From Deltaproteobacteria bacterium (lineage in GTDB: Bacteria; Desulfobacterota; Desulfarculia; Desulfarculales; Desulfarculaceae), in the NCBI GenBank assembly GCA_020444165.1, contig JAHLLK010000021.1, positions 12,931 through 76,930 on the forward strand: a stretch of DNA of 64,000 nucleotides, given 5' to 3'. Shown piece after piece: positions 12,971 to 60,779 of the stretch; within the stretch, counting starts at the first letter, position 1, and each line of letters begins with the position of its first letter. The notes under the pieces were generated by a model, which did not search any database, was not told where the DNA came from, and was given only the letters and a program-made list of their open reading frames with translations. The translations under genes were made by a program, and so were the position numbers.

Positions 12971-13014
12971 CCTCGGCTTGCGCTTCTTGGTGAGACAAAC
13001 CTGTCGTCCTGCCC

Positions 13015-13056
13015 AAAAAACCGCCGGCCGCCCGAGAAGGGCGGCCGGCGGTTTTT
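13015..13056. terminator. Bidirectional intrinsic terminator
   Basis: A 13-base G/C stem (13021-13033 with 13039-13051, loop GAGAA) is flanked by six A on the left and five T on the right. It serves the flagellin genes on the plus strand and the ferritin-like gene on the minus strand. Confidence 0.85.
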
Positions 13057-13147
13057 GGCGTCACGAGAAAACCCGGCCACCCCGTCGCCGGGTTCTGGCA
13101 AGGCAAGGGGGCCGCGGCTGGAAACCGGGTTGCTTCCGGGGGTTAGC

Positions 13148-16569: not shown

Positions 16570-17124
16570 ATGGAGTTGTCTGACCTGCCCCGGGACCTGC
16601 AGGAGACCGTGAAGTTTCACGGCCACCTCTGTCCGGGTTTGTTGATAGGTTACCGGACGGCCAAGGCGGCTTTGGCCCGCCTGGGGGCCGGCCGGTCGGA
16701 GGATGAGGAACTGGCCGTGGTGGCGGAGAACAACAGCTGCAGCGTGGACGCCATGCAGGTGCTGTTGGGAGCCACCTTTGGCAAGGGCAACCTCAAATGG
16801 CGGGACTACGGCAAGCAGGTGTTCTTCATCTACGACCGCAAACGCGAGCAGGCGCTCAGGGTGAGCTTTGTGGGCGATCATCTGCGCACCGACGGGCCGG
16901 ATGGGCAGCCCGACCGCGAGGGCTTCAGCCGGGCCCTGTTGGCCGCGCCGGATGAGGAGCTGTTCAAGTTCCGCGAGGTGGACTTTTTCCCCCCGCCCGA
17001 GGCGGTGATCGAACCGGGCATCGTTTGCGACGCTTGCGGCGAGCGCACCCAGGAGAGCCGCTTGGTGGTGCGGAGCGGCCGGTCCCTGTGCCGCTCCTGC
17101 GCGGCCCGGGAGGGCGTGTCTTGA
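16570..17124 (+). CDS. FmdE family protein with C-terminal zinc finger
   Basis: 184 residues. The N-terminal domain has the FmdE signature FHGHLCPG (His17, His19, Cys21) and a following NNSCSVDA element, as in the formylmethanofuran dehydrogenase subunit E family. The C-terminal 35 residues contain two Cys pairs (CDAC and CRSC), a TraR/DksA-type zinc finger common in this family. FmdE proteins occur in methanogens and in many sulphate reducers and may aid molybdenum/tungsten enzyme maturation or regulation, but the biochemical role is not settled. The stop codon overlaps the start of the next gene, so the two are translationally coupled. Confidence 0.85.
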   Translation: MELSDLPRDLQETVKFHGHLCPGLLIGYRTAKAALARLGAGRSEDEELAVVAENNSCSVDAMQVLLGATFGKGNLKWRDYGKQVFFIYDRKREQALRVSFVGDHLRTDGPDGQPDREGFSRALLAAPDEELFKFREVDFFPPPEAVIEPGIVCDACGERTQESRLVVRSGRSLCRSCAAREGVS

Positions 17125-17714
17125 AAGGGGTGACCGAGCTGGTGTTCGAGGCCGGCATGCTGAAAAAAATGCGCCGCACCGGCTACCCCTTTTTGGGCAG
17201 CGGCGGCGAGTCGGTGGCGGACCATTGTTTCCGGGCGGCGCTTTTGGGCTATTGGCTGGCCCTGGAGCATGGGACGGAACTGGGCGTGGAAGATCCGGCC
17301 CAGGTGGCGCTTTTGCTGTTGCACCACGACTTGGCCGAGGCCCGCACCGGCGATCTGAACTACATGAACAAGCGCTACTGCGTGGCTGACGAGGCCAAGG
17401 CCCTGGACCATCAGGTGCGGGACCTGCCCCCGGTCCTGGCGGGGCGGGTGCGGGCCCTGGTGGAGGAGTTCAACGAGTCGGCCACGCCGGCCGCCCGCCT
17501 GGCCCACGACGCGGACCAACTGGACCTTCTCGTGGAGCTGAAGGAGCAGCAGGACCTGGGCAACCCCTACGCGCAGAAGTGGATTCACTACGCCCTGAAG
17601 CGCCTGACCACCGCGCCGGCCCAGCGGCTGGCGGCCGAGATCCTGGGCACGGATTGGACCGACTGGTGGTTCGAGAAGCGCGAGGAGCTGTGGGTGCACC
17701 ACAACGGGAAATGA
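17121..17714 (+). CDS. HD-domain phosphohydrolase (HDDC2/YfbR-like)
   Basis: 197 residues from a TTG that overlaps the FmdE stop; a GTG at 17130 is an alternative start. The HD superfamily metal ligands are visible: SVADHCFR (His), LLHHDLAEARTGD (His-Asp) and HDADQLDLL (Asp). This pattern fits the YfbR/HDDC2 subgroup, whose characterised members are 5'-deoxynucleotidases. It likely acts on a nucleotide in the cytoplasm; the substrate is not deducible. A strong intrinsic terminator follows. Confidence 0.85.
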   Translation: MKGVTELVFEAGMLKKMRRTGYPFLGSGGESVADHCFRAALLGYWLALEHGTELGVEDPAQVALLLLHHDLAEARTGDLNYMNKRYCVADEAKALDHQVRDLPPVLAGRVRALVEEFNESATPAARLAHDADQLDLLVELKEQQDLGNPYAQKWIHYALKRLTTAPAQRLAAEILGTDWTDWWFEKREELWVHHNGK

Positions 17715-17736
17715 GGGCGAAGGAGTCCGAGCGAGA

Positions 17737-17770
17737 CGGAGGCGGCCGGTTGGCCGCCTCCGTTTCTTTT
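17737..17770 (+). terminator. Intrinsic terminator of the fmdE-HD unit
   Basis: CGGAGGCGGCC (17737-17747) pairs perfectly with GGCCGCCTCCG (17752-17762), loop GGTT, followed by TTTCTTTT. It separates the plus-strand genes from the minus-strand sRNA array. Confidence 0.85.
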
Positions 17771-17774
17771 GGCC

Positions 17775-17844
17775 AAAAGGAAAGGCGCCCACTGGGGAGG
17801 TGGGCGCCTTCAAGGAAAGGAGAAAAGGGTGTTTAGCTGGTCGC
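17775..17844 (-). ncRNA. Predicted sigma-54-dependent small RNA, unit 1
   Basis: About 70 nt on the minus strand. It begins GCGACCAGC exactly 12 nt after the C of the promoter TTGC, continues as a C/U-rich stretch containing CUCCUUUCC, and ends in an 11-bp hairpin (17782-17810, loop CUCCCCA) followed by a broken T-run (TTTCCTTTT). Unit 2 is nearly identical; units 3-6 keep the same start, C/U stretch and covarying hairpin. No reading frame of note. Existence is inferred from promoter, terminator and conservation. Confidence 0.75.
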
Positions 17845-17855
17845 CCTATGAATAA

Positions 17856-17870
17856 GCAACTATGATGCCA
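17856..17870 (-). promoter_or_regulatory. Sigma-54 promoter of sRNA unit 1
   Basis: TGGCATCATAGTTGC on the minus strand: GG-N10-GC with TGGCA and TTGC boxes. Confidence 0.75.
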
Positions 17871-17892
17871 ACCCCCGGGGCGGGGGACAGGG

Positions 17893-17962
17893 CAAGGAAA
17901 AGGCGCCCACTGGGGAGGTGGGCGCCTTCAAGGAAAGGAGAAAAGGGTGTTTAGCTGGTCGC
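17893..17962 (-). ncRNA. Predicted sigma-54-dependent small RNA, unit 2
   Basis: Second unit, 118 bases from unit 1 and nearly identical to it including the flanks, so a recent tandem duplication. Starts GCGACCAGC; terminator stem 17900-17910 with 17918-17928, loop CUCCCCA, then TTTTCCTT. Confidence 0.75.
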
Positions 17963-17973
17963 CCTATGAATAA

Positions 17974-17988
17974 GCAACTATGATGCCA
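17974..17988 (-). promoter_or_regulatory. Sigma-54 promoter of sRNA unit 2
   Basis: Same 15-base TGGCATCATAGTTGC core as unit 1, with GG-N10-GC spacing. Confidence 0.75.
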
Positions 17989-18011
17989 ACCCCCGGGGCG
18001 GGGGACAGGGC

Positions 18012-18080
18012 AAAGAAAAGGCGCCCACTGGGGAGGTGGGCGCCTTCATAGGAAGGAGAAAAGGGTGATTAGCTGGTCGC
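18012..18080 (-). ncRNA. Predicted sigma-54-dependent small RNA, unit 3
   Basis: Third unit, 118 bases further. Starts GCGACCAGC, has AAUCACCC in place of AAACACCC, keeps the CUCCUU part of the C/U motif, and ends in the stem 18018-18028 with 18036-18046. The 11 bases between promoter and start differ from units 1 and 2, while the transcript itself is conserved. Confidence 0.75.
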
Positions 18081-18091
18081 ACGTAGATTAA

Positions 18092-18106
18092 GCAAGGACG
18101 GTGCCA
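18092..18106 (-). promoter_or_regulatory. Sigma-54 promoter of sRNA unit 3
   Basis: TGGCACCGTCCTTGC on the minus strand, a consensus -24/-12 element. Confidence 0.8.
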
Positions 18107-18143
18107 AACCGCCCGCCCCCGTGACTTTGGCTGCTGGTCGAGC

Positions 18144-18217
18144 AAAAAAAAGGAAAGACGCCCATTGGGGAGATGGGCGTCTTCAAGGAAAGGAGAAAAG
18201 GGTGTTTAGCTGGTCGC
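18144..18217 (-). ncRNA. Predicted sigma-54-dependent small RNA, unit 4
   Basis: Starts GCGACCAGC and carries CUCCUUUCC. The terminator stem (18155-18165 with 18173-18183) has changed to AAGACGCCCAT/ATGGGCGTCTT: both bases of two pairs are altered relative to unit 1, so pairing is preserved. The loop CUCCCCA is kept and an eight-T tract follows after TTTCC. This unit is the best-formed intrinsic terminator of the array. Confidence 0.8.
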
Positions 18218-18228
18218 CCTGTAATTAA

Positions 18229-18243
18229 GCAAGGACGGTGCCA
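18229..18243 (-). promoter_or_regulatory. Sigma-54 promoter of sRNA unit 4
   Basis: TGGCACCGTCCTTGC on the minus strand, identical to units 3 and 5. A 12-base palindrome TTGGCCGGCCAA lies upstream at 18288-18299. Confidence 0.8.
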
Positions 18244-18356
18244 ACAAGGCCATTGGTCGAGGAGGCCCAGGATGGGGCCGCGGTGCGTTGGCCGGCCAAC
18301 CAGCTAAATTAAATAGTCTTTACCTAAAACTGCCAATGCCTGGCGCACCGGAGAAT

Positions 18357-18428
18357 AAAAAAGGAAAGACGCCCACTGGGGAGGTGGGCGTCTTCATGGA
18401 AAGGAGAAAAGGGTGTTTAGCTGGTCGC
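18357..18428 (-). ncRNA. Predicted sigma-54-dependent small RNA, unit 5
   Basis: Starts GCGACCAGC, has the C/U stretch CUCCUUUCC, stem 18366-18376 with 18384-18394, loop CUCCCCA, then TTTCCTTTTTT. Spacing to unit 4 is 211 bases, so the array is not a simple tandem repeat: only promoter and transcript are conserved. Confidence 0.8.
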
Positions 18429-18439
18429 CCTGTAATTAA

Positions 18440-18454
18440 GCAAGGACGGTGCCA
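18440..18454 (-). promoter_or_regulatory. Sigma-54 promoter of sRNA unit 5
   Basis: TGGCACCGTCCTTGC on the minus strand. An 11-base inverted repeat (18510-18520 with 18542-18552) lies 56-112 bases upstream of the promoter core, a fitting distance for an activator site. Confidence 0.8.
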
Positions 18455-18591
18455 ACCCCAGGCGGCCGGCCGGTTTCCTCCGGGCCACCGGCCTTTCGCC
18501 CCCTGGGTCCTGGCGGGATATTTTGAACTATATTACCTCGTTATCCCGCCAGAGCCCTCCGGGACGCCGCCCTGCCGCGCGCCCTAAAAAA

Positions 18592-18652
18592 AAGACGCCC
18601 ACTGGCTGGTGGGCGTCTTCCTGGAAAGGAGAAAAGGGTGTTAGCTGGTCGC
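18592..18652 (-). ncRNA. Predicted sigma-54-dependent small RNA, unit 6
   Basis: Most diverged unit. It still starts GCGACCAGC 12 nt after the promoter and keeps CUCCUUUCC, but one A is missing from the AAACACCC stretch and the loop is CAGCCA. The stem AAGACGCCCAC/GTGGGCGTCTT (18592-18602 with 18609-18619) is intact; the stem's own T residues extend into an eight-T tract whose last six bases (18586-18591) lie just beyond the listed end. Confidence 0.75.
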
Positions 18653-18663
18653 GTGAAAAAATA

Positions 18664-18678
18664 GCAAGAAGCATGCCA
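18664..18678 (-). promoter_or_regulatory. Sigma-54 promoter of sRNA unit 6
   Basis: TGGCATGCTTCTTGC on the minus strand, GG-N10-GC. Confidence 0.75.
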
Positions 18679-18910
18679 CCCTTCGCCTTTTAGCGGGCAT
18701 CAAGAATTATCACTTTAATTACCGATACTTGGCTCAGATAATGTTCCCAAGACCCCCGGGGGCCTTGGTCGGGGCGGCCCCGCCCCGGTTCAAAAATTTG
18801 AACCCGCCGCGGGGCGCGGCGGGTTACAGTTCTGTGATCCTATTGTTTTCAGAGGCAATTTGGCGGTTGAAAAAATTGAACCGCCCTTTGGCCCGGGGCG
18901 TCGCAATTTT
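18679..18910. other. Hairpin-rich spacer after glyA
   Basis: Contains three inverted repeats downstream of glyA: GGCGGTT/AACCGCC around an A/T-rich loop (about 18861-18884), AACCCGCCGC/GCGGCGGGTT (about 18801-18825) and GTTCAAA/TTTGAAC (about 18788-18803). One or more probably end glyA transcription before the sRNA array. The 5' side (18690-18730) is A/T-rich and could hold an activator site for sRNA unit 6. Confidence 0.45.
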
Positions 18911-20152
18911 TTAACCCAGGCCGGGCGCCGGAAATTTAGCACACATTTCGGCGACTTCCCCGCGGACGACCGCCAGGGCCGCCTCGTCGCCCACCAGAGT
19001 GGCCACGCGGGATATCAGCTCGGCCACGCGGGCCATCTCCGCCTCGCCCATGCCGCGGCTGGTCAGGGCCGGGGTGCCGAAGCGCACGCCGCTGGGGTCG
19101 TTGGCCGAGCGGGGGTCAAAGGGGATCTTGTTGGCGTTGGCCACGATGCCGGCCTGTTCCAGGGCGCTGGCCAGCACCTTGCCGGTGAGCCCCTTTTGGC
19201 CGGCGTCCAGGAGCACCAGGTGGTTGTCCGTGCCGCCGGTGACCAGGCTGAAGCCCTGCTCCAACAGGCCCTCGGCCAGGGCCCGGGCGTTCTTGGCCAC
19301 CTGGTGACAGTAGTCGTGGAACTCCTGGCCCGAGGCTTCCTTGAGGGCCACGGCGATGGCCGCAGTGATGTGGTTGTGCGGGCCGCCCTGCAGGCCGGGG
19401 AACACGGCCTTGTCGATCTTGGCGGCCAGGTCCTGGCGGCAGATGATGAGGCCGCCCCGGGGGCCGCGGAGGAGCTTGTGGGTGGTGGAGGTCACCACGT
19501 CGGCGTGGGGCAGGGGGTGGGGATGGTCGCCGCTGATGCACAGGCCCGAAATGTGGCTGATGTCCGCCACCAGGTAGGCCCCCACCTCGCGGGCGATTTC
19601 GCCGAAGATGGCGAAATCGATGGCGCGGGGGTAGGAGGAAGCGCCGCAGAACAGGAGTTGGGGCTCGAAGTCCAACACCTCGCGCCGCACCTGGTCATAA
19701 TCCAGGCGGCCGGTGTCCCGGTTCAAATGGTAGCCCCGCACGTCGTAGTAAGTGCCGGAAAAGCTGGCTTTGGTCCCATGGGTCAGGTGGCCGCCCGCGG
19801 CCAGGTCCATGCCCATCACCCGCCCGGATTTGCCCAACAGCCCCAGGTATACGGCCATGTTGGCCGGGCTGCCGGAGTAGGGCTGCACGTTGATGTGCTC
19901 GCCGCCGAACACCTGTTTGGCCCTTTGGATGGCCAGCTCTTCCACCTGGTCGATGTTTTCCTGACCTTGGTAGTAGCGGTGCCGGGGGTAGCCCTCCGAG
20001 TATTTGTTGCACAGAATGGAGCCGGTGGCCTCCAGGACCGCCTGGGAGGCGTAGTTTTCCGAGGGGATCATGCGCAGACTGGCCTTTTGCCGGGCGGTCT
20101 CGGCCTCGATGAGGGCCGCCAGCTCCGGGTCCACGCGCTTCAACTCTTCCAT
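18911..20152 (-). CDS. glyA: Serine hydroxymethyltransferase
   Basis: 413 residues, the usual length. Conserved landmarks include IPSENYAS near the N-terminus, the cofactor-lysine motif VVTSTTHKLLRGPRGG and the substrate-binding TDNHLVLLD region. It converts serine and tetrahydrofolate to glycine and 5,10-methylene-tetrahydrofolate with pyridoxal phosphate in the cytoplasm. The ATG at 20152 is favoured by GGGAAAGGAA eight bases upstream and by the family N-terminus (MEELKRVDPEL), although the frame is open further. A sigma-70 promoter lies just upstream. The ribosome binding site includes GGAAAGGA, complementary to the C/U motif of the neighbouring small RNAs. Confidence 0.97.
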   Translation of the reverse strand: MEELKRVDPELAALIEAETARQKASLRMIPSENYASQAVLEATGSILCNKYSEGYPRHRYYQGQENIDQVEELAIQRAKQVFGGEHINVQPYSGSPANMAVYLGLLGKSGRVMGMDLAAGGHLTHGTKASFSGTYYDVRGYHLNRDTGRLDYDQVRREVLDFEPQLLFCGASSYPRAIDFAIFGEIAREVGAYLVADISHISGLCISGDHPHPLPHADVVTSTTHKLLRGPRGGLIICRQDLAAKIDKAVFPGLQGGPHNHITAAIAVALKEASGQEFHDYCHQVAKNARALAEGLLEQGFSLVTGGTDNHLVLLDAGQKGLTGKVLASALEQAGIVANANKIPFDPRSANDPSGVRFGTPALTSRGMGEAEMARVAELISRVATLVGDEAALAVVRGEVAEMCAKFPAPGLG

Positions 20153-20187
20153 GGCATAAATTCCTTTCCCATTGCTCGAAGTCAATG

Positions 20188-20216
20188 AATATGTCACAGG
20201 CGGGAAAGGTTGTCAA
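20188..20216 (-). promoter_or_regulatory. Sigma-70 promoter of glyA
   Basis: On the minus strand TTGACA (20211-20216), 17 bases, CATATT (20188-20193). Flanking TGTCACA (20192-20198) and TGTGACA (20220-20226) form an inverted repeat across the promoter, a possible operator. Confidence 0.65.
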
Positions 20217-22146: not shown

Positions 22147-22825
22147 CTTTCAGGCTGGCTACCAAGCCACCTTCGGGAGCGCGCGAGCTTGGCTTGAATG
22201 ATGGCCCCGCTCGACACGCAATGCCAGCAGCGGCACGCTGCCGCGAGTGCATTGGTTCATTACCAAGCCAACTTCGGGAGTACGCGAGCTTGGCTTGAAT
22301 GATGGCCCCGCCCGACACGCAATGCCAGCAGCGGCACGCTGCCGCGTTGGCCAGGGTATTTGCCAGCCCACCTACGGGAGCGCGCGGCATTGGCTTGAAT
22401 GATGGCCTTCCCCGACACGATACGCCAGCAGCGGCACGCTGCCGGCACGCTGCCCAGACCCCTGCTTTCAGGCTGGCTACCAAGCCACCTTCGGGAGCGC
22501 GCGAGCTTGGCTTGAATGATGACCTTCCCCGACACGATACGCCAGCAGCGGCACGCTGCCACGACACGCAATGCCAGCAGCGGCACGCTGCCGCGTTGGC
22601 CAGGGTATTTGCCAGCCCACCTACGGGAGCGCGCGGCATTGGCTTGAATGATGGCCTTCCCCGACACGATACGCCAGCAGCGGCACGCTGCCCCGACACG
22701 ATACGCCAGCAGTGGCACGCTGCCCCGAGTGCATTGGTTCATTACCAAGCCAACTTCGGGAGCGTTTGGCCTTGGCTTGAATGATGGCCCCGCTCGACAC
22801 GTAATGCCAGCAGTGGCACGCTGCC
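22147..22825. repeat. Mosaic intergenic repeat array
   Basis: About 680 bases built from two alternating modules. Module A (six copies, for example near 22160, 22262, 22487) is CCAAGCCA...TGGCTTGAATGATGGCC, able to fold by CAAGCCA/TGGCTTG. Module B (eight or nine copies, for example near 22322, 22420, 22789) is CGACACG...GCCAGCAGCGGCACGCTGCC, folding as GCAGCG-GCA-CGCTGC. Three linker variants are shuffled between them (GTGCATTGGTTCATTA, GGCCAGGGTATTTGCC, TTTCAGGCTGGCTA). Some copies have G-T pairs that keep the module B stem. An open frame across the minus strand is a by-product of the repeat. Confidence 0.75.
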
Positions 22826-22828
22826 CGC

Positions 22829-39576: not shown

Positions 39577-39592
39577 TGCAAGGGCGGTGCCA
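39577..39592 (-). promoter_or_regulatory. Sigma-54 promoter of cheW-mcp
   Basis: TGGCACCGCCCTTGCA on the minus strand, a perfect -24/-12 element (GG-N10-GC). It differs from sRNA promoters 3-5 at only two of 16 bases. Predicted start near 39565, leaving a leader of about 130 nt before cheW. The remaining gap up to 39785 shows no other feature. Confidence 0.8.
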
Positions 39593-44103: not shown

Positions 44104-45414
44104 ATGCAAGGAATGACCACGCGCCCGCCCGTCAAGCCCCACGATGATATCAGTGATATGGCCCGTCGCCCGCGGCAGGACCGAGAGGAAATCGCGTCCC
44201 TGCGGGAGGAGAACCTGAAGCTCCGGGCCGAGCTGGCCCAGCGGGACAGCCTGGAAGAAGACCTTCACCGCCGGCTGTTCCACGTTGAGAGCCTCCTGGA
44301 AAACGCCCGCAACTTTGCGGTGATGCGTCAGACCGTCAACCCCGACAACCCGGACCGCACCAAGGTCGTCCTGGTCAGCCCCTCTTTTCAGGAGCTGACG
44401 GCCATCGCTGATCCCCTGAACCAGAACAGTTGGTTCGAGGTGGTGCACCCCGATGACCAGGAGTGGTTGTTGCAGGCCCAGCGGGACGCCATGGCCACCG
44501 GCCTTTTCGACGTGGAGTTCCGGCTCTTTCACAGCGGCCTGGCGGAGTGGCGCTGGATGCATGTCCTGTGCAGCGGCCGCCTGGAGCAGGACGGCAAACC
44601 ACATTTCCTGGACGCCGTGGTGCAGGACGTCACCGACCGCAAGCGGGCCGAGCTGGAGCTGGCCCGCCACCGCGAGCACTTGGAGGAGTTGGTGGAGGAA
44701 CGCACCCGGGAACTGAAGCGCGAGGTGGCCAGGCGCCAGCGCCGCGAGGAAGAAGTCTCGGCCGCCCTGGCCGAGAAGGAGGTGCTGCTCAGGGAAGTGC
44801 ACCACCGGGTGAAGAACAACCTGCAAAGCATCGCCAGCCTCTTGGATTTACAGGCCTTGCACGGGGCCACGGATTTGGTGGCCGACTCCTTCCAGGAATG
44901 CCGCGACCGGGTGCGGGCCATGTGCCTGATCCACCAGCAACTCTACCGGGCCGACGACCTGGCCCTGGTGGCCCTGGGCCCCTATCTGGAAAACCTGGCC
45001 TCCTCCCTGTTCCGGGCCTACGGCGCCGGCGAGGGCGGACCGGAGTTTTTCCACGACGCCGGCGACCTCTGCCTGGACCTGGACCGGGGGGTGGCCTGCG
45101 GACTCATGTTCAACGAGCTTCTTTCCAACTCCCTCAAGCACGCCTTTCCCGCGGGCCGGCCCGGCCGGGTCACCATCCTGGCCCGCCAATCGGAGCGGGA
45201 GATGGTGGAAGTGATCTTTGCCGACAACGGGGTGGGCCTGCCGCCGGGCCTGGACCTGGACTTGGCCCCCTCCCTGGGGCTCCGCCTGGTGCGGCTGTTG
45301 GCCGAGGGCCAACTGGGCGGCCGGCTGGAGATTTTGCCCGGTCCCGGGGCGGTGTTCCGCTTCACCTTCCCGCGCCAAGGCCCGGAACTCCAGGGAACGC
45401 CGGCCTTGTGCTGA
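44104..45414 (+). CDS. PAS sensor histidine kinase, first tandem copy
   Basis: 436 residues, no transmembrane segment, so cytoplasmic. A coiled-coil start (EEIASLREENLKLRAELAQRDSLEEDL) is followed by a PAS_3 domain (about 60-185), a second coiled coil and a HisKA_2-type dimerisation domain with phospho-acceptor His in EVHHRVKNNLQSIASLLDLQA. The HATPase_c domain has N box MFNELLSNSLKHAF, and G boxes FADNGVGLP and SLGLRLVRLL. Start ATG at 44104 or 44113. The response regulator partner is not adjacent. The C-terminal part shares a 544-base block with the second copy. Confidence 0.92.
   Translation: MQGMTTRPPVKPHDDISDMARRPRQDREEIASLREENLKLRAELAQRDSLEEDLHRRLFHVESLLENARNFAVMRQTVNPDNPDRTKVVLVSPSFQELTAIADPLNQNSWFEVVHPDDQEWLLQAQRDAMATGLFDVEFRLFHSGLAEWRWMHVLCSGRLEQDGKPHFLDAVVQDVTDRKRAELELARHREHLEELVEERTRELKREVARRQRREEEVSAALAEKEVLLREVHHRVKNNLQSIASLLDLQALHGATDLVADSFQECRDRVRAMCLIHQQLYRADDLALVALGPYLENLASSLFRAYGAGEGGPEFFHDAGDLCLDLDRGVACGLMFNELLSNSLKHAFPAGRPGRVTILARQSEREMVEVIFADNGVGLPPGLDLDLAPSLGLRLVRLLAEGQLGGRLEILPGPGAVFRFTFPRQGPELQGTPALC
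44717..45260 (+). repeat. Block identical between histidine kinases 1 and 2, copy 1
   Basis: 544 bases that I find identical to 46178-46721, ending where copy 1 has CTTGGCC and copy 2 has GACGCTC. It spans the end of the linker, the dimerisation domain and most of the ATPase domain, while the PAS region differs. Confidence 0.8.
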
Positions 45415-45579
45415 ACTCCGGGGAGGTCGGGGCCGGTCCTGTTTCCTACCCTCTGGTAAGAGAATTCCCTTGTTCGCCTTGTCTCGCCGTTCTATATTTT
45501 TGGGCCAACTTTGTTCTGCATAAACAGGCCCGCTTGGGGACGGAGCCACTCCGCTCCCCCAGCCCATGGGGGTCCAGAC

Positions 45580-46875
45580 ATGCCCGCTGACAAACCCGCC
45601 CGGACTGACCGCACGTCCGCCAAATCGGCAGCCGGCGAGCCCAGCCGTCTTGCCGCCCTGGAAGAGGAGAACCTGAAGCTCCGGGCCGAGCTGGCCCAGC
45701 GGGACAGCCTGGAGGAAGACCTCCGCCGCCGTCTGTTTCATCTGCAAAGCCTCATGGACAATGCCCGCAACTTCGCGGTTTACCGCCTGGCGGTGGCGGC
45801 CGATGAGACCAAGCGCGCCGCCCGGGTGATTTTTGTCAGCCGTTCTTTTCCGGAAATTTTTCCCGTGGCCGAACCTCTGGACGGAGAATCCTGGTTTCAC
45901 ATAGTGCATCCTGATGACATCGAACTGCCCGTGCGGGCTCAGCAAGAGGCTTTGCTCACCGGCCTGTTGGATGTCACCTGCCGCATCTTCCACCCCGGCA
46001 GGAACGAATGGCGCTGGGTCCACGTCCTGGCCAGTTCCCAGATGGAGCCCGGCGGCCACACCCGTTTTTTCGATGGGGTCATCCAGGACATCACCGAGCG
46101 CAAGCGGGCGGAGCTGGAGCTGGCCCGCCACCGCGAGCACCTGGAGGAGTTGGTGGAGAATCGCACCCGGGAGCTGGAGCGCGAGGTGGCCAGGCGCCAG
46201 CGCCGCGAGGAAGAAGTCTCGGCCGCCCTGGCCGAGAAGGAGGTGCTGCTCAGGGAAGTGCACCACCGGGTGAAGAACAACCTGCAAAGCATCGCCAGCC
46301 TCTTGGATTTACAGGCCTTGCACGGGGCCACGGATTTGGTGGCCGACTCCTTCCAGGAATGCCGCGACCGGGTGCGGGCCATGTGCCTGATCCACCAGCA
46401 ACTCTACCGGGCCGACGACCTGGCCCTGGTGGCCCTGGGCCCCTATCTGGAAAACCTGGCCTCCTCCCTGTTCCGGGCCTACGGCGCCGGCGAGGGCGGA
46501 CCGGAGTTTTTCCACGACGCCGGCGACCTCTGCCTGGACCTGGACCGGGGGGTGGCCTGCGGACTCATGTTCAACGAGCTTCTTTCCAACTCCCTCAAGC
46601 ACGCCTTTCCCGCGGGCCGGCCCGGCCGGGTCACCATCCTGGCCCGCCAATCGGAGCGGGAGATGGTGGAAGTGATCTTTGCCGACAACGGGGTGGGCCT
46701 GCCGCCGGGCCTGGACCTGGAGACGCTCCCCTCCCTGGGGCTGCGGCTGGTGCGGTTGTTGACCGAGGGCCAACTGGGCGGCCGGCTGGAGATTTTGCCC
46801 GGGCCTGGGGCGGTGTTCCGCCTCACCTTCCCCCGCCAGGGCCCGCCCCAGCGAGGCGCCGCGGCCCTGTGTTGA
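45580..46875 (+). CDS. PAS sensor histidine kinase, second tandem copy
   Basis: 431 residues with the plan of the first copy: N-terminal coiled coil, PAS_3 domain (RNEWRWVHVLASS...DGVIQDITERKRAELEL), HisKA_2 with EVHHRVKNNLQ, and HATPase_c. The PAS domain differs strongly from copy 1 (RVIFVSRSFPEIFPVAEPLDGESWF), so the input differs while the output is the same. The ATG at 45580 gives the matching N-terminus; upstream frame is not family-like and the ribosome binding site is weak. Probable duplication with later conversion of the kinase half. Confidence 0.9.
   Translation: MPADKPARTDRTSAKSAAGEPSRLAALEEENLKLRAELAQRDSLEEDLRRRLFHLQSLMDNARNFAVYRLAVAADETKRAARVIFVSRSFPEIFPVAEPLDGESWFHIVHPDDIELPVRAQQEALLTGLLDVTCRIFHPGRNEWRWVHVLASSQMEPGGHTRFFDGVIQDITERKRAELELARHREHLEELVENRTRELEREVARRQRREEEVSAALAEKEVLLREVHHRVKNNLQSIASLLDLQALHGATDLVADSFQECRDRVRAMCLIHQQLYRADDLALVALGPYLENLASSLFRAYGAGEGGPEFFHDAGDLCLDLDRGVACGLMFNELLSNSLKHAFPAGRPGRVTILARQSEREMVEVIFADNGVGLPPGLDLETLPSLGLRLVRLLTEGQLGGRLEILPGPGAVFRLTFPRQGPPQRGAAALC
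46178..46721 (+). repeat. Block identical between histidine kinases 1 and 2, copy 2
   Basis: See 44717-45260. The constant offset of 1461 bases along the whole block shows no insertion or deletion. Confidence 0.8.
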
Positions 46876-47014
46876 GGCCCCGGGCGGCTGGCCGGCGGGG
46901 TCTCGACTGGCGGGGTCTCGACTTGTCCCCCTTCCCGGTGATGTTTTATATTTTTAGCGTCTGATTTTCCCCGGCTTGGTTTGCCCGGTTCCTGATTGCC
47001 AGCGAGGTTGCCCG

Positions 47015-48307
47015 ATGCCCGACGGCCCCAAATCCCCGGACATGAATGCCTTGCGCCAAGCCCTGCGGGAGGCCCGAGCCCAGAACGCGTCTTTGGAAGA
47101 AGACATCCTGAAGCTGCGGGCGGAGCTGCGCCAGCGGGACGACCACGAGCAAACCCTGGGCCGCCGCCTGCACAACCTGGAAAGCCTTTTGGTGAACGCC
47201 CGCGATTTTGCGCTGTACCGCTTGGCCGCCAACCCCGACAACACCGACCGCAGCCGGGTCATCTTCGCCAGCCGCTCCTTTTCGGAAATCACCTGTGCCC
47301 GCGACCCCTTGGACCAGGACACCTGGTTCCAGGTGATCCATCCCGACGACCAGGAGCTGGTACTGCAAGCTCAGCGGAACTCCGCGGACAACGGCCTGTT
47401 CGAAGTGGAGTTCCGCATTTTCCACCCCGGCAAGGGGGAATGGCGCTGGCTGCACGTCCTGGCCAACGGCGGGTTGGACCCTGACGGCAAACCGCATCTC
47501 TTCGACGGAGTGGTGCAGGACGTCACCCCGCGCAAGCGGGCGGAGCTGGAGCTGGCCCGCTACCGCGACCACCTGGAGGAGTTGGTGGCCGCGCGCACCC
47601 GGGAGCTGGAGTGCGAAGTGGCCGAGCGCCAGCGGAGGGAATTGGAGCTTTCGGCCGCCCTGGCCGCGAAGGAGGTGCTCCTCCGGGAGGTGCACCACCG
47701 GGTGAAAAACAACCTGCAAAGCATCGCCGGGCTGTTGGATTTGCAGGCCTTGCACGGGGCCACGGACCTGGTGGCCGACTCCTTCCAGGACTGCCGCGAC
47801 CGGGTGCGGGCCATGTGCCTGATCCACCAGCAGCTCTACCAGGCCGATGACTTGGCCCTGGTGGCCCTGGGCCCTTATCTGGAGAACCTGGCCGCGTCCC
47901 TGTTCCGGGCTTACGGGGCCGGGGAGCGCTGCCCGGAGTTTTTCCACGACGCCGGGGACCTCTGCCTGGACCTGGACCGGGGGGTGGCCTGTGGGCTGTT
48001 GTTCAACGAACTGCTCTCCAACACCCTGAAGCACGCCTTCCCCCGGGGCGGGCCCGGCCGGGTCACCGTGCTGGCCCATCTCTCGGGCCGGGAGACAGTG
48101 GAGATCATCTTCGCCGACAACGGCGTGGGCCTGCCGCCGGGCCTGGACCTGGACACGGTGCCCTCCCTGGGGCTGCGGCTGGTGCGGCTGTTGGCCGAGA
48201 ACCAGTTGGGGGGGCGGCTGGAGATTCTGCCCGGCCCCGGGGCGGTGTTCCGCCTCACCTTTCCCCGTCAGGTCCCGCCCCGGAAAGGCACCCCGGCTCT
48301 GTGCTGA
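47015..48307 (+). CDS. PAS sensor histidine kinase, third tandem copy
   Basis: 430 residues, third paralogue in the row. The same coiled coil, PAS_3, HisKA_2 (EVHHRVKNNLQSIAGLLDLQA) and HATPase_c domains are present, all diverged from copies 1 and 2 by scattered changes over the full length, with no identical block. Its PAS (FEVEFRIFHPGKGEWRWLHVLANG) is closer to copy 1. All three lack membrane segments. ATG at 47015; ribosome binding site weak. A tandem-repeat and terminator region follows. Confidence 0.9.
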   Translation: MPDGPKSPDMNALRQALREARAQNASLEEDILKLRAELRQRDDHEQTLGRRLHNLESLLVNARDFALYRLAANPDNTDRSRVIFASRSFSEITCARDPLDQDTWFQVIHPDDQELVLQAQRNSADNGLFEVEFRIFHPGKGEWRWLHVLANGGLDPDGKPHLFDGVVQDVTPRKRAELELARYRDHLEELVAARTRELECEVAERQRRELELSAALAAKEVLLREVHHRVKNNLQSIAGLLDLQALHGATDLVADSFQDCRDRVRAMCLIHQQLYQADDLALVALGPYLENLAASLFRAYGAGERCPEFFHDAGDLCLDLDRGVACGLLFNELLSNTLKHAFPRGGPGRVTVLAHLSGRETVEIIFADNGVGLPPGLDLDTVPSLGLRLVRLLAENQLGGRLEILPGPGAVFRLTFPRQVPPRKGTPALC

Positions 48308-48350: not shown

Positions 48351-48555
48351 AGGGCGACAAAAAAAACCGGCCTGAGCGCAGGGTCACACAAAAGGGCGAC
48401 AAAAAAACCGGCCTGAGCGCAGGGTCACGCAGAAGGGCGACAAAAAAACCGCCCAACCTCGGGGTCACGCGGGAGGGCGACAAAAAAACCCGCCCAACCT
48501 GGTAGTCACGCAGAAGGGCGACAAAAAAACCCGCCCGGCTGCATGCCGCGCGGGG
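48351..48555. repeat. Five 41-base tandem repeats
   Basis: AGGGCGACAAAAAAA recurs at 48351, 48393, 48434, 48474 and 48515, spacing 40-42 bases, with a G/C-rich middle (CCGGCCTGAGCGCAGGGTCACGC or variants). On the minus strand each has a seven-T tract, so it may be an amplified terminator remnant between the convergent kinase and dehydratase genes. Confidence 0.75.
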
Positions 48556-48578: not shown

Positions 48579-50033
48579 TTAGCTGTGGGCCAGGTCCAGC
48601 ATCCGGGCCACGCGGTCGATCTTGGCCTCCAGGTCCGCCTGCCGGCCGATCATGATCCGCTGGGCCGTGGGCGGCCCGGCCCCGTGCATGGACTCGATGA
48701 GGTAGCCCACCGCGCCGGCCCCGGCCACCAGGTTCTCGATGAGCCGGAGCACCTTGATGCGGTCCACCACCGGGTAGGCTGGATTGGCGGCCAGGTATTT
48801 CTGGATGTAGGGCCCGGCCACCGGGTCGGCCAGGTCCGCCGCCGAGGGCATGGTGCCCAAGAGCCCCCCGGCGATGTCCGTGGCCAGGCGGGCCAGCTCA
48901 AAGGGGAAGCGGGTCACGTTCAGCTTGCACACGTTGGCCAGGAGCAGGTTCACCTGGTAGTTGCCGGCCGGGGTGGCCGCGCCGGTGGCCGAGCAGGCGA
49001 TGCCGCAGGCGTAGATGGTCTCGTTGAGGTGGATCATCTCCACCAGCTTGTCCTTGATGTGGCTGGCCCGCTCCACCCCGTTCATGCGGGCGATCAGGGC
49101 CGCCGCCCCGATGAGGGCGTCGCCCACCCCCACCTTGCAGCCGCCGTAGCTCTGGCGGTGGTAGGAGGCGAAGCGCTCCACCAGGGCGCCGGAGAAGTCC
49201 ACCTGCCCGTCCAGGAACACCCGCTCGTCCGGCACGAACACGTCCTCGAACACGGTCATGACTTCCTGGCCCCCGAACACCGGGTTGCCCACGTCCAGGC
49301 GCGAGGCCTCCAGCTTGCGGGTGTCCGAGGCCTGGCGGCCGTAGATGTAGCGCACCCCGGGCTCGTTGGTGGGCACGGCGCAGCACACGGCCCAGGGCTC
49401 CTCGCCGGGCCGCAGGGTGATGGTGGGCATCACCAGGATCTCGTGGGAGTTCAGCATGCCGGTCTGGTGCAGCTTGGCCCCGCTGATCACCACCCCGCCC
49501 GGCCGGCGCTCCTTCACCCGCAGGTAGAGGTCCGGGTCCACCTGCTCGGACGGCCGTTTGCCCCGATCGCCCTTGGGGTCGGTCATGGCCCCATCCACCA
49601 CCAGGTCCTGTTGCTGCACCCAGGTCCAGTAGGCGCGGAAGCGCTGGTGGAAATTGGTGCCGTGCCGGGCGTCGCAGTCAAAAGTGGTGCTGAACACCGC
49701 GTTGGCCGCGTCCAGGCCCACGCAGCGCTGGAAGCAGCAGGCCGTGGCCGCGCCGCAGTGCCGCTGCATGCGCACCTTGTTCACCAGGTCCGCAGTGCTC
49801 TGGTGCAGGTGGGTGAAGCGGTTCACCTCGTCCCCGCACAGGTTGGACTCGGCCCGGAACAGCTCCCGGCAGGCGGGGTCGTGGGCCGCGTCATAAGTGT
49901 AGGCCACGGCTGCCTGGCTGGGTTTCACCAGGCCGTGCCCCGCGGTCTCCCCGGTTTCCTGGCCCATGATGTGGGCCTTCAGCCCCAGGGACTTGATGGA
50001 CTCCCGATACTCCGCGCCGGTTTTCAGCGCCAT
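48579..50033 (-). CDS. abfD: 4-hydroxybutyryl-CoA dehydratase/vinylacetyl-CoA delta-isomerase
   Basis: 484 residues of the 4-hydroxyphenylacetate hydroxylase/4-hydroxybutyryl-CoA dehydratase family. The four ligands of the [4Fe-4S] cluster are in place: CFQRC gives C100 and C104, and YHRQSYGGC gives His292 and C299, matching the Clostridium aminobutyricum enzyme (C99, C103, H292, C299). FAD-binding elements (GAKLHQTGMLNSHEILV) are also present. It would convert 4-hydroxybutyryl-CoA to crotonyl-CoA in anaerobic metabolism. Downstream of a TetR regulator by 42 bases and of an acyl-CoA ligase-like gene, so an acid-degradation unit is likely. Confidence 0.88.
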   Translation of the reverse strand: MALKTGAEYRESIKSLGLKAHIMGQETGETAGHGLVKPSQAAVAYTYDAAHDPACRELFRAESNLCGDEVNRFTHLHQSTADLVNKVRMQRHCGAATACCFQRCVGLDAANAVFSTTFDCDARHGTNFHQRFRAYWTWVQQQDLVVDGAMTDPKGDRGKRPSEQVDPDLYLRVKERRPGGVVISGAKLHQTGMLNSHEILVMPTITLRPGEEPWAVCCAVPTNEPGVRYIYGRQASDTRKLEASRLDVGNPVFGGQEVMTVFEDVFVPDERVFLDGQVDFSGALVERFASYHRQSYGGCKVGVGDALIGAAALIARMNGVERASHIKDKLVEMIHLNETIYACGIACSATGAATPAGNYQVNLLLANVCKLNVTRFPFELARLATDIAGGLLGTMPSAADLADPVAGPYIQKYLAANPAYPVVDRIKVLRLIENLVAGAGAVGYLIESMHGAGPPTAQRIMIGRQADLEAKIDRVARMLDLAHS

Positions 50034-54101: not shown

Positions 54102-54575
54102 TCAGGAAGCGGGCTTCTTCCATTCGTCGCTGAACTCGATGTTGCCATCGTGGATGGTCCAGGTGATCTTCTCATACCTGAGGCCATAGTCGGCCATGTG
54201 CTTGTAGGTCGACGTGGCCGCGTCGTCCACGTTGGGAATCCAGGTCTTGATGTCGGTGACCCGGGCGTTTTCCAGTTTGATGGTGAAGTACTTCTTCTGT
54301 TGGCCCTGATCGTCGATCTGGTAGAAGTCGGCGGTCACGGTCTTGATGGCCTGCGAGGTGCAGCAGGACTTCATCAGGTTGGGGAAAGCCTTGTCCACGT
54401 TGGCCGTCATGGTCATGGCGCCGTGCTGGCGGGCGCCCGTGGCGCTGGCGTCCTTGACATCCACGGGGATGTGCACCAGGTGGTCCAGGGCCAACACCTG
54501 CACGGTGTTCTCCCGGCCCTGCACCTGGCAACTGCCGTCAATGCCGTCGAACTTGACGTAAATGGGAAGTGGCAT
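54102..54575 (-). CDS. hcp: Type VI secretion tube protein Hcp
   Basis: 157 residues of the Hcp family: MPLPIYVKFDGIDGSC at the start, a beta-barrel pattern, and YEKITWTIHDGNIEFSDEW near the end. Hexameric rings of Hcp stack into the inner tube of the type VI apparatus. It is the last gene of the visible set, 53 bases after tssH, with AAAAAGGAG before the ATG. A possible terminator follows. Two adjacent cysteines (SCCTSQ) are notable. No VgrG or effector gene is in the window. Confidence 0.93.
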   Translation of the reverse strand: MPLPIYVKFDGIDGSCQVQGRENTVQVLALDHLVHIPVDVKDASATGARQHGAMTMTANVDKAFPNLMKSCCTSQAIKTVTADFYQIDDQGQQKKYFTIKLENARVTDIKTWIPNVDDAATSTYKHMADYGLRYEKITWTIHDGNIEFSDEWKKPAS

Positions 54576-54628
54576 TTCATCACTCCTTTTTACAAGGGTT
54601 TACGGGGACATCCCCAAGCAACCACCAG

Positions 54629-57211
54629 TTATTGATCAAACTGGTAGGTGAAGCCTTCCTCAGTGTAACCCAAAGTCAGTTGGCTGGGCTTCCGGCCTTG
54701 GGCCATGGCCTCCAAAATCTCGGTGGAGATGCGGGGCATGATGCTCTGGGCCAGGATGTGGTCGATGTTGCGGGCGCCCTCTTCCACCTCGGTGCAGCGG
54801 TCGGTGATCGCGGCTACCGCCTCGGGGCCGTAGACCAGCTTCAGGCGCTGGCCCTCGTAGAGCCGCGCGGCCAACTGGTTCAGCTTGAGCTGCACGATCT
54901 CCTTGATGGAGTCCTGGCCCAGGGTCAAATAGGGCACCACGGTCATGCGGGCCAACAAGGCCGGCTTGAAATACTGCGACAGCTCGGGCCGGATGGTCTC
55001 CAGCACCTCGGCGGCCTCGGGCCGCACCGGGCTCTCGGCCAACTTGGTGATGGTGTCGGTGGCCAGGTTGGAGGTCAAAAGTATGAGTGTGTTCTTGAAG
55101 TCTATCTCGCGGCCCTCGCCGTCGTTCAGGATGCCCTTGTCGAACACCTGGTAGAACAGGTTCAGCACGTCGGGATGGGCCTTTTCGGTCTCGTCCAACA
55201 GCACGATGGAGTAGGGCCGCTGGCGCACCGCCTCGGTGAGGCGGCCGCCCTCGCCATAGCCCACGTAACCGGGAGGCGAGCCGATGAGCCGGCTCACCGT
55301 GTGGCGCTCCTGGAACTCGGACATGTTGATGGACACCACGAAGCGCTGCCCGCCGAACAGCTCGTCAGCCATGACCAGGGCCGTCTCGGTCTTGCCCACG
55401 CCGCTGGGCCCCACCAGGAGGAACACGCCGGTGGGGCTGTTGGGCGACTTGACCCCGGCCTTGGAGGCCCGGATCCCCTTGGCCAGGGTCTCCAGGGCCC
55501 AGTCCTGGCCCTTGATGCGCTCCTTCATGCGCGCCTCCAGGTCCAGCATCACCCGGGCCTCGTCGGAAACCATCTTGGACAGGGGGATGCCGGTCCAGTC
55601 GGTGACCACGCTGCCCACGCAGTCGGCGTCCACCTCCAGTTTCACCAGGCCGTCCCTGCCCTGGAACTCCTTCAGCGCGACTCGGGCCGCGTGGTCCTGG
55701 GCCTCGTCATTGGCCTCGGCCGCGGCCTGCACCTGGGCCACGAATCCCTTTTCCTTTTCCCAGCGCTCGGTCAGCTCGGCCACCTGGCCGGCCAGGTCTT
55801 CCCGCTTCTGCTTGGCCTCTTCCAGCTCCTCCAACTCGTCGGTGGTGGGCTCCTTTTCGGCGGTAAGCGCGTTGATCTCCCGGTCCAGGCTGGCCAGCCG
55901 GCGCTCCAGGTCGTCCAGGCGGCCCGGCTTGGAGGTGAGGCCGATGCGCACCCGGGCCGCGGCGGTGTCGATGAGGTCCACGGCCTTGTCCGGAAGCTGA
56001 CGGCCGGAGATGTAACGGGCCGAGAGGTTGGCCGCCGCCACCACGGCCTGGTCCAGGATGCTGACCTTGTGGGCCTCCTCGTACTTGGCCTTGAGCCCCC
56101 GGAGCATGTCCACCGTGGCCGCGGGGCTGGGCTCGTCCAGCTTCACCAGCTGGAAACGCCGGGCCAGGGCCACGTCTTTTTCGAAGTATTTCTTGTACTC
56201 CGACCAGGTGGTGGCCGCGATGGTGCGAAGCTCGCCGCGGGCCAGGGGCGGCTTCAGGAGGTTGGCCGCGTCCGAGCCGCCGGCCGGGCCGCCGGCCCCG
56301 ATGATGGTGTGGGCCTCGTCGATGAACATGATGATGGGGGTCTCGGAGGCCTTCACCTCGTCGATCACTCCCTTGAGCCTTTTCTCGAACTCGCCCTTGA
56401 CGCCGGTGCCGGCCTGCAACAAGCCCATGTCCAAGCCATGGATGGACACCCCGGTCAGCACGTCGGGCACGTCGCCCTCGGTGACGCGGAGCGCCAGGCC
56501 CTCCACCACCGCGGTCTTGCCCACGCCGGCCTCGCCCACCACGATGGGGTTGTTCTTGCGGCGGCGGGCCAGGATGTCGATCATCTCCCGGATTTCCCGG
56601 TCACGGCCGAACACCGGGTCGATCTTGCCGGCGGCCGCCTGGGCGGTGAAGTCGATGGTGTACTGGGCCAGGAAGGACTCGCCGCCCGCCCCGCCGGGCC
56701 GGGCCCCGGACGCGGCCTTGGCCGCCTTGGGCTTGTTCTCGGTGGAGTCCTTGGTGATGGCGTCGTAGTTCTTGATGAGGTCGGCGATCTCCACCCGGCC
56801 CAGGAGCTGGCCATAGGTGCGGGTGGCCAGGAAGCCCTGGTCCTTGCACAGGGCCAGGAGCACGTAACCGGAGCGGACCTCGTTGTCGGACAGGTCCACG
56901 CTGGCCACCAGCCAGGACTGCTCCATGAGATCCAGGAGATGGGGGCTGAAGGCCGGCCGGCCGCTGTTGCCGGTGGGGAAGTCCTCCAGGGTGGCCAAGA
57001 GTTCCTGCTGCAGGCGGCCCGGGTCCACCTCGTAATACCGGAGGATCGGCACGATGTCGCCGCCGGCGTCCTCGATGGCCTTCAAGAGGAAATGCTCCAC
57101 GCCCACCTGATACTGCGTGCGGGTGAGGGTGAACCCGGCGGCCTCGTCCAACAGCCGCACGGTCAACCGCCCCAGCTTGGACATTAGAACCTTGGTGTTG
57201 CTGATGAGCAT
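54629..57211 (-). CDS. tssH: Type VI secretion ATPase TssH (ClpV)
   Basis: 860 residues, the usual ClpV length. An N-terminal Clp-like domain is followed by the first AAA+ domain with Walker A GEAGVGKT, the coiled-coil middle domain and the second AAA+ domain with GPSGVGKT. Both Walker B motifs are present (IIMFIDEAH and IVLLDETEKAH). It disassembles the contracted TssB/TssC sheath. It follows tssG by 22 bases. Nothing unusual in the motifs. Confidence 0.95.
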   Translation of the reverse strand: MLISNTKVLMSKLGRLTVRLLDEAAGFTLTRTQYQVGVEHFLLKAIEDAGGDIVPILRYYEVDPGRLQQELLATLEDFPTGNSGRPAFSPHLLDLMEQSWLVASVDLSDNEVRSGYVLLALCKDQGFLATRTYGQLLGRVEIADLIKNYDAITKDSTENKPKAAKAASGARPGGAGGESFLAQYTIDFTAQAAAGKIDPVFGRDREIREMIDILARRRKNNPIVVGEAGVGKTAVVEGLALRVTEGDVPDVLTGVSIHGLDMGLLQAGTGVKGEFEKRLKGVIDEVKASETPIIMFIDEAHTIIGAGGPAGGSDAANLLKPPLARGELRTIAATTWSEYKKYFEKDVALARRFQLVKLDEPSPAATVDMLRGLKAKYEEAHKVSILDQAVVAAANLSARYISGRQLPDKAVDLIDTAAARVRIGLTSKPGRLDDLERRLASLDREINALTAEKEPTTDELEELEEAKQKREDLAGQVAELTERWEKEKGFVAQVQAAAEANDEAQDHAARVALKEFQGRDGLVKLEVDADCVGSVVTDWTGIPLSKMVSDEARVMLDLEARMKERIKGQDWALETLAKGIRASKAGVKSPNSPTGVFLLVGPSGVGKTETALVMADELFGGQRFVVSINMSEFQERHTVSRLIGSPPGYVGYGEGGRLTEAVRQRPYSIVLLDETEKAHPDVLNLFYQVFDKGILNDGEGREIDFKNTLILLTSNLATDTITKLAESPVRPEAAEVLETIRPELSQYFKPALLARMTVVPYLTLGQDSIKEIVQLKLNQLAARLYEGQRLKLVYGPEAVAAITDRCTEVEEGARNIDHILAQSIMPRISTEILEAMAQGRKPSQLTLGYTEEGFTYQFDQ

Positions 57212-57233
57212 GCCTACCTCTCCCTTGACCCGG

Positions 57234-60016: not shown

Positions 60017-60459
60017 ATCGCCACCTGGGTGCGGCCGGTGCCGCTGACCACGGTTTGGAACTTGATGACGGTTTCGGGCTCGTCCAGGGACTCCAGGGTG
60101 CCCTCGATGGTGAAGGTCGCCTCGAAATGGTTGGCCGCCGTGCTGCTCAAATAGACCTTCACGTCGGCCAAGCGGGGCTCATAGCGGGCCACGGTATCCT
60201 TGATGGCCCGGCCCAAGGGCTCCAAGGAGTCGGGAAAGCCCTTGTAATACTCGGAAAGGTCCGGCAGCCCGTAGTCCGGCAGCTGGCGCACGCTGCCTTG
60301 GCGGGTGTTGAACAGGAGAATCAGATGCTCCCGCACCGCCTCGGCCAGGGTGGTGGGCGGCGCGGCGTCCGGGTTCAGGGCCGAACGTCCGGCGATGGTT
60401 TCCAGAAAGGCGAACTCGATGGCCAACGTCGTTTGCTCCCGCCAGTAGGCGCGCCACAT
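60013..60459 (-). CDS. tssE: Type VI secretion baseplate protein TssE
   Basis: 148 residues of the gp25/lysozyme-like family: LFNTRQGSVRQLPDYGLPDLSEYY is the TssE signature, and the protein is beta-rich at the end (FTIEGTLESLDEPETVIKFQTVV). It attaches the sheath to the baseplate. Overlaps tssF by four bases. The inserted element at 60467-60722 lies eight bases upstream of its start and probably supplies or replaces the normal ribosome binding region; GAGGT-like sequence is not evident. Confidence 0.92.
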   Translation of the reverse strand: MWRAYWREQTTLAIEFAFLETIAGRSALNPDAAPPTTLAEAVREHLILLFNTRQGSVRQLPDYGLPDLSEYYKGFPDSLEPLGRAIKDTVARYEPRLADVKVYLSSTAANHFEATFTIEGTLESLDEPETVIKFQTVVSGTGRTQVAM

Positions 60460-60466
60460 GCTCTAG

Positions 60467-60722
60467 CCCGGAAATTTCAGGAAGACCGGGCGTCCGGCGG
60501 CGCCAGATGTCCCCCGGCTGCGTTGCGGACTTCGCTCCAACCTCGCCGTAGGGTTGGCTACGCCTCTCGGTTGTCACTTGTCCGTCGCCTTGCCGGTCGC
60601 CATCTGGCTGGGCCGGTCCAGGGGACAAAACGTCACCTGACAAACGGGTAGATTTGAATTGAACAAGCAATCCAAATCAGATCCTCGTCGATTCAGCCGC
60701 CCGCCCTCATGAAATATCCGGG
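60467..60722. mobile_element. 256-bp element with terminal inverted repeats, copy B (inverse of copy A)
   Basis: Left end CCCGGAAATTTCAGG (60467-60481), right end CATGAAATATCCGGG (60708-60722); 13 of 15 bases are complementary. Relative to copy A at 34776 it is inverted. It lies between tssC and tssE, an otherwise tightly packed operon, so insertion there is probably secondary. Confidence 0.8.
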
Positions 60723-60779
60723 CTTGGGATTCACGAGGCCGGGGCGGGAGACGGCCGGGCCGTCTCCCGCCGGGGTGGG

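Follow-up and report, generated by a model that had tools for sequence, protein, structure and literature searches.

A putative array of six sibling small RNA genes with sigma-54-type promoters and a probable anti-Shine-Dalgarno stretch in a Desulfarculaceae-like bacterium

Six similar units lie on the minus strand within less than 1 kb between glyA (18911-20197, minus strand) and a convergent HD-hydrolase gene (17025-17714, plus strand), and the locus raises the question of whether these units are genes, how they would be transcribed and what their products would do. An earlier note, made from the letters alone, had read them as sigma-54-dependent small RNA genes; in the present analysis the observation was confirmed and the interpretation was supported in part. 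The window, i.e. the whole stretch of DNA analysed, has a length of 64 kb and a GC content of 67%, and besides the array it carries flagellin, cheW and MCP genes, genes for GGDEF and PilZ proteins and a T6SS cluster. For the HD-hydrolase 7998 candidates were scored, 2385 proteins were related at E<=1e-3, and the best 120 of these 2385 included relatives from Thermodesulfobacteriota, Desulfarculaceae, Desulfarculus and Dethiosulfatarculus with 68-75% identity; the source is accordingly likely to be a Desulfarculaceae-like bacterium, and a kinship with sulfate reducers is probable. Elsewhere in the window three PAS-HisKA_2 histidine kinase genes stand in tandem (44104-48307), a histidine kinase gene and an HpaB-family gene flank a 41-bp tandem repeat of 4.5 copies (48351-48536), and 22160-22826, where no gene was picked, holds tandem repeats with periods of 101 bp (84% matches) and 132 bp (81% matches).

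All six units were recovered at the places given in the note, with the first base of the start word GCGACCAGC at 17844, 17962, 18080, 18217, 18428 and 18652 of the minus strand. No other exact copy of the word occurs in the window; 39 more sites carry it with one mismatch (34.8 expected with up to one mismatch). The features of the array are given below, together with the scores of a covariance model, R1, which are high by construction as the six units were its training set.

17771..17844, minus strand: unit 1, predicted small RNA of about 70 nt, predicted +1 at 17844; short T tract; R1 103.1 bits; basis also the fold
17856..17870, minus strand: sigma-54-type promoter of unit 1, TGGCATCATAGTTGC; exact match
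17889..17962, minus strand: unit 2, predicted small RNA, predicted +1 at 17962; short T tract; R1 101 bits; its repeat copy and the one holding unit 1 are 98% identical
17974..17988, minus strand: sigma-54-type promoter of unit 2; exact match
18007..18080, minus strand: unit 3, predicted small RNA, predicted +1 at 18080; CU-rich variant CUCCUUCCU; short T tract; R1 98.5 bits
18092..18106, minus strand: sigma-54-type promoter of unit 3; exact match
18144..18217, minus strand: unit 4, predicted small RNA, predicted +1 at 18217; long T tract; R1 102.5 bits; flagged by the terminator scan
18229..18243, minus strand: sigma-54-type promoter of unit 4; exact match
18355..18428, minus strand: unit 5, predicted small RNA, predicted +1 at 18428; long T tract; R1 104 bits; flagged by the terminator scan
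18440..18454, minus strand: sigma-54-type promoter of unit 5; exact match
18581..18652, minus strand: unit 6, predicted small RNA, the most diverged copy, predicted +1 at 18652; R1 86.7 bits
18664..18678, minus strand: sigma-54-type promoter of unit 6, TGGCATGCTTCTTGC; exact match
18187..18195, minus strand: anti-Shine-Dalgarno-like stretch CUCCUUUCC of unit 4; its complement stands on the plus strand
17814-17822, 17932-17940, 18398-18406 and 18623-18631, minus strand: CUCCUUUCC in the other units that carry it
18505..18557: inverted repeat of 16 nt around an AT-rich centre of 21 nt, upstream of the unit 5 promoter (18500-18562 as RNA, -29.5 kcal/mol)

No gene-like ORF was picked by codon-position GC between 17715 and 18910. 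Mechanical ORFs of at least 80 aa do overlap the array, none of them gene-like by this measure, and a protein search with the antisense ORF across unit 5 gave three candidates, none at E<=10. A peptide-coding reading was rejected, as no start codon is common to all six units: at RNA position 32 an ATG or TTG is found in five, and unit 6 is without one. A leader of a downstream gene was also rejected, since every unit closes with a hairpin of its own and the gene that follows runs the opposite way. In our judgement the units are very probably six sibling small RNA genes, and the anatomy on which this judgement rests was read directly from the sequence.

The note had described a GG-N10-GC promoter in each unit. 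An exact TGGCAY-N5-TTGC element was indeed found before all six, and in all of them the distance from its final C to the conserved start, itself a predicted one, is 12 nt. Exact sites of this kind number seven in the window, six of these in the array, compared with a mean of 0.37 and a maximum of 2 in 60 first-order Markov sequences of window length. At both elements and with the correct spacing the words match the sigma-54 consensus, and on account of these exact -24/-12 elements at the correct distance it is highly likely that the six RNA genes depend on sigma-54. The seventh exact site, TGGCACCGCCCTTGC at 39578-39592 (minus strand), stands ahead of cheW, the likely start of which is an ATG near 39437, well within the listed ORF; sigma-54 serves motility genes, and the site fits this role.

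A different sigma factor acting at these promoters was also considered, as was a repeated protein-binding site in their place. Such a reading would agree with the sites with one mismatch, which show no excess (8 found, 10.5 expected), and with the Pfam scan of 53 window ORFs, in which neither a sigma-54 activator domain nor rpoN was seen, the window being a small fraction of the genome. Against it stand the fit to the sigma-54 consensus, the variation of N5 and of the flanks around constant words, and the recurrence of the same exact element before cheW, and it is regarded as quite improbable. The region 17000-19500 gave no sigma-70-type promoter, which tells little because only 0.3 were expected. 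Regarding a shared activator site, nothing convincing was found upstream of units 4-6 after three tries: the best three-way match was reached by shuffles in 1/100 cases for the 16-mer, 11/100 for the 12-mer and 4/100 for the 8-mer. The inverted repeat at 18505-18557 is possibly an activator site or an extra hairpin. Upstream of the unit 3 promoter, at 18133-18141 (minus strand), the word TCGACCAGC differs by one base from the RNA start word, and CGACCA words resembling it occur upstream of units 4 and 6.

The predicted transcripts were compared with the bases that separate them from the promoter. That this spacer is free to vary and the transcript conserved, as claimed in the note, was borne out across the six copies: 9 of the 11 spacer columns are variable, against 2 of the 28 columns of RNA positions 1-28 (Fisher p=1.3e-5). 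Elsewhere, variable columns amount to 4/5 in N5, 0/4 in TTGC, 1/6 in TGGCAY and 4/5 in the 5-nt linker before the stem. Because the copies share ancestry, single pairs were also compared. Units 5 and 6 differ at 11 of 16 promoter-spacer positions and at 1 of 28 in the RNA 5' part (p=5.9e-6), and units 2 and 3 at 8/16 and 1/28, respectively (p=5e-4); the 11-nt spacer is identical between units 1 and 2 and between units 4 and 5.

The stem of the terminal hairpin was examined in the same manner, as compensated changes had been taken in the note to show selection on RNA pairing. All cells of its 12 pairs are paired (100%), 10 pairs are invariant, and 2 of the 12 are changed on both sides. The controls for selection were mixed: of 500 shuffles, 40 reached the number of doubly changed pairs, 5 the covariation score and 477 the further pair types, and sliding the stem partner by +2 gave the same covariation score of 0.156, but with 70.8% of the cells paired and no doubly changed pair. 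The compensation is weak and supports at most that a hairpin is kept, and for this a terminator alone would be reason enough.

The distances between units (118, 118, 137, 211 and 225 bases) had been used to argue that the array is not a mere tandem repeat. They were reproduced except for the last, which measures 224 from start to start and 225 from one CU-rich block to the next, owing to a base missing from unit 6. The argument itself needs to be qualified: units 3-6 differ in spacing and flanks, but units 1 and 2 form a recent 118-bp duplication. The copies 17776-17893 and 17894-18011 are 98% identical and Tandem Repeats Finder reported 17776-18095 as an array of 2.7 copies of 118 bp; part of the array therefore arose by recent tandem duplication. 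The same data, with the weak T tracts of units 1-3, can be taken further, to a recent expansion of one promoter-terminator cassette in which most copies are silent or redundant. This is considered unlikely, as units 3-6, apart in spacing, in flanks and mostly in promoter spacers, have kept the promoter words, RNA positions 1-28 and a paired stem, and as the strong contrast between spacer and RNA is given by the most diverged pair, units 5 and 6.

In the predicted transcripts of 72-74 nt a strong terminal hairpin was found in all six units (z -4.1 to -6.6, with 0/200 shuffles as good in each case), with 11 stem pairs plus a closing G-U and with the loop CUCCCCA in five of the six, as had been noted. 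By eye, a T-rich tail follows the hairpin on the minus strand; the T tract is long in units 4-6 and short or interrupted in units 1-3. The proposal of an intrinsic terminator with an 11-bp stem was thus upheld for the hairpin in every unit, but the terminator scan flagged units 4 and 5 only, and its terminator-like sites in the region number 6 against 3.7 expected. Given such ends, polymerase may read on from unit 3 to unit 2 and from unit 2 to unit 1.

In the centroid structures positions 1-33 (1-30 in unit 6) are unpaired, apart from two base pairs that close the 5' end. At about positions 23-31 this open part holds CUCCUUUCC in five units and CUCCUUCCU in unit 3, and CUCCUU is present in all six, in agreement with the note. 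The word UUUUCUCCUU is unpaired in the centroid of every unit; in the lowest-energy fold of unit 6 it is partly paired, part of the CU-rich stretch pairing there with bases past the T tract, and the centroid leaves the stretch open. In unit 4, the opening of RNA positions 20-32 costs about 0 kcal/mol. CUCCUUUCC resembles the anti-Shine-Dalgarno 3' tail of 16S rRNA, and by this likeness pairing with Shine-Dalgarno regions is the most likely use of the stretch. Action by base pairing, probably with Shine-Dalgarno sequences, is accordingly plausible as a prediction from the letters, and repression of mRNAs in this way is somewhat favoured over its absence.

Candidate targets were sought among the ribosome sites of 51 window genes. 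Outside the array GGAAAGGAG has one copy, at 62912-62920 (minus strand), in the ribosome-binding site of vipA/tssB, 6 nt before the ATG; this single copy is no excess, because 0.82 are expected in the whole window. The vipA/tssB site, a 9-nt perfect complement, sits inside the T6SS cluster (54102-63932). Complements to the RNA of 8 nt and 7 nt were found for glyA, with its start taken by judgement at the ATG 45 nt into the listed ORF, and for hcp, respectively, and hcp fell outside the best 12 of the 51 genes by ribosome-site pairing. The best hybrid energies were -13.3 for vipA, -13.0 for the HpaB-family gene (48579-50033) and -12.3 for glyA, and the totals after opening costs -7.5, -11.1 and -7.9, respectively. 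RNA positions 20-32 make 9 of the best 12 ribosome-site contacts. However, 55 of 100 mononucleotide-shuffled RNAs reached the best binding energy over these sites, and therefore no target can be claimed. A cruder duplex ranking, in which vipA was 9th of 51 by energy (z -1.42) and the mean z over genes was +0.53, was discarded, being dominated by GC-rich contacts away from the ribosome site. An SD-like word stands at only 10 of the 51 mechanically chosen gene starts.

Predicted pairing with mRNAs of the window does not surpass that of shuffles, which would also suit sigma-54-dependent RNAs that serve as decoys or sponges, for another RNA, Hfq or a protein, and do not repress mRNAs directly. RNAs that, like these, come in several nearly identical copies, are unstructured in the 5' part and have a C-rich loop would lend themselves to a role as sponge, and a 10-nt complement of the RNA 5' end, TTTAGCTGGT, lies inside the array between units 5 and 4 (18299-18308, minus strand), where it is possibly a decayed or antisense element. 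This alternative is held to be unlikely: the conserved single-stranded part contains a classical anti-Shine-Dalgarno word, and anti-Shine-Dalgarno motifs are reported for alphaR8 and alphar14 sRNAs in the excerpts consulted of PMC12559287 and PMC7143759.

Relatives of the RNAs were searched for by covariance models, patterns and alignment. As the note had supposed that no named family has this sequence, the whole window was compared with Rfam, and no family reached its gathering score. The Qrr family is present in Rfam, and its model was among neither the matches at gathering score in the window nor the weak matches in the array. With relaxed thresholds over the array the nearest family was suhB/MmgR (alphaR8, RF00519), with 24.5, 23.5, 19.8 and 15.6 bits on units 3, 2, 1 and 6 (E 0.013 to 2.3; cutoff 41 bits) and units 4 and 5 not among the matches. 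This is a resemblance and not membership, because the part in common in the best alignment is UUU-CUCC and a GC-rich terminator and the match of units 2 and 1 extends into the promoter. Weak matches of weev_FSE, 6C, ar14, CcsR1, sX13 and others were all below cutoff and were dismissed. R1 gave 11 matches in the window at E<=10: the six training units at 87-104 bits, then a match at 18.1 bits, antisense to a hairpin and one of two such matches at 17-18 bits. A match at 12992-13061 (plus strand; 13.5 bits, E 0.095), behind a flagellin gene, was taken as the probable terminator of that gene.

A pattern of the exact core over genome contigs had one match, in Paenibacillus, by eye lacking promoter words, hairpin and T tract, and judged to be chance. 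Four scans of viral contigs returned 0, 9 and 1 pattern matches and 0 confirmed glyA relatives, and in none of the 10 matches do the next 130 bases, by eye, continue with the remainder of the unit. With blastn at E<=1, matches were obtained to 6 plasmid and 2 phage records, the best of them 31-37 bases long, and none was taken as real. The negatives of the pattern scans are weak because exact words were demanded. As these scans yielded no homologue, conservation rests on the paralogues. A limited search of open-licence PMC literature found, among the matches listed, no sRNA study on Desulfarculaceae-like bacteria.

From these data we infer the following course of events. An enhancer-binding protein, its gene lying outside the window, would activate sigma-54 RNA polymerase at each unit; the transcript would begin 12 nt beyond the C of the -12 element and end, some 70 nt later, at the hairpin of that unit. 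Most of the first 33 nt would be left single-stranded and expose CUCCUUUCC, which would pair with Shine-Dalgarno regions of mRNAs and block ribosome loading, possibly with Hfq; the multiplication of the gene would raise the dose. Taken as a whole, this reading of six sibling small RNA genes, read by sigma-54, with hairpin ends of their own and repression by Shine-Dalgarno pairing, is the one we consider reasonably likely. A bolder version is improbable, in which a new Desulfarculaceae-like family of six anti-Shine-Dalgarno RNAs, with own sigma-54 promoters and a shared signal, mimics the 16S tail and dose-tunes strong ribosome-binding sites including that of the T6SS sheath gene vipA/tssB, convergent with Qrr control of T6SS. 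If expressed as predicted, the array would constitute a new sibling sRNA family, in which six self-contained sigma-54 transcription units fit into less than 1 kb, and would provide a compact natural test of why sRNA genes multiply and of how one sigma-54 activator serves promoters 118-224 bp apart.

Among known systems, the Vibrio Qrr RNAs had been named as precedent. The analogy of multi-copy sigma-54-dependent genes stands, but Pxr, with its tandem copies, and alphaR8, with its anti-Shine-Dalgarno siblings, are closer. Qrr genes are scattered and linked to LuxO. For V. fluvialis, the parts drawn on of PMC11443567 describe four Qrr copies with conserved -24 and -12 regions and four predicted stem-loops each, unlike the single strong terminal hairpin found here, and Qrr4 base-pairs to the 5' UTR of both tssB2 (vipA) and tssD2_a (hcp) and represses the two genes. 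The myxobacterial sRNA Pxr has an apparent sigma-54 promoter and, in Cystobacter, three tandem paralogues, each said to have a sigma-54 promoter of its own, an arrangement shared with the array (excerpts of PMC5568312). As described there, Pxr differs in its two or three predicted stem-loops, against one terminal hairpin and six copies here (a comparison of structure and not of sequence), and in its place in M. xanthus downstream of the regulator nla19, whereas no activator was seen in the window. An sRNA of a sulfate reducer, Dv_sRNA2 of Desulfovibrio vulgaris, adjoins the gene of the two-component response regulator DVU0679 and is a target of it, and is likened here by description only (PMC3333781, in part). 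The alphar14 sRNA NfeR1 of Sinorhizobium meliloti shares the six genome copies and the anti-Shine-Dalgarno motifs, placed there in each loop of three hairpins; according to the sections used of PMC7143759, it has a sigma-70 promoter and only one copy was reliably detected. The ar14 model gave 17.4 bits against a cutoff of 58.8. The alphaR8 RNAs (suhB/MmgR, SisA-D) occur in several copies in some genera, some of them adjacent (PMC7143759, PMC12559287, both in part), and the exposed anti-Shine-Dalgarno motif and the sibling copies are common to them and the array. In the same part of PMC7143759 MmgR is 77 nt long, is induced by NtrC, is tabulated with both RpoD and RpoN, and has three predicted stem-loops with the motif in the first loop, in contrast to the single strong hairpin here, and alphaR8 is alphaproteobacterial. 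Given Qrr, Pxr and alphaR8 as precedents the device is of limited surprise, and the array probably represents a sequence family that is new within a known kind, that of sibling sRNAs with sigma-54-type promoters and, in this case, a probable anti-Shine-Dalgarno stretch.
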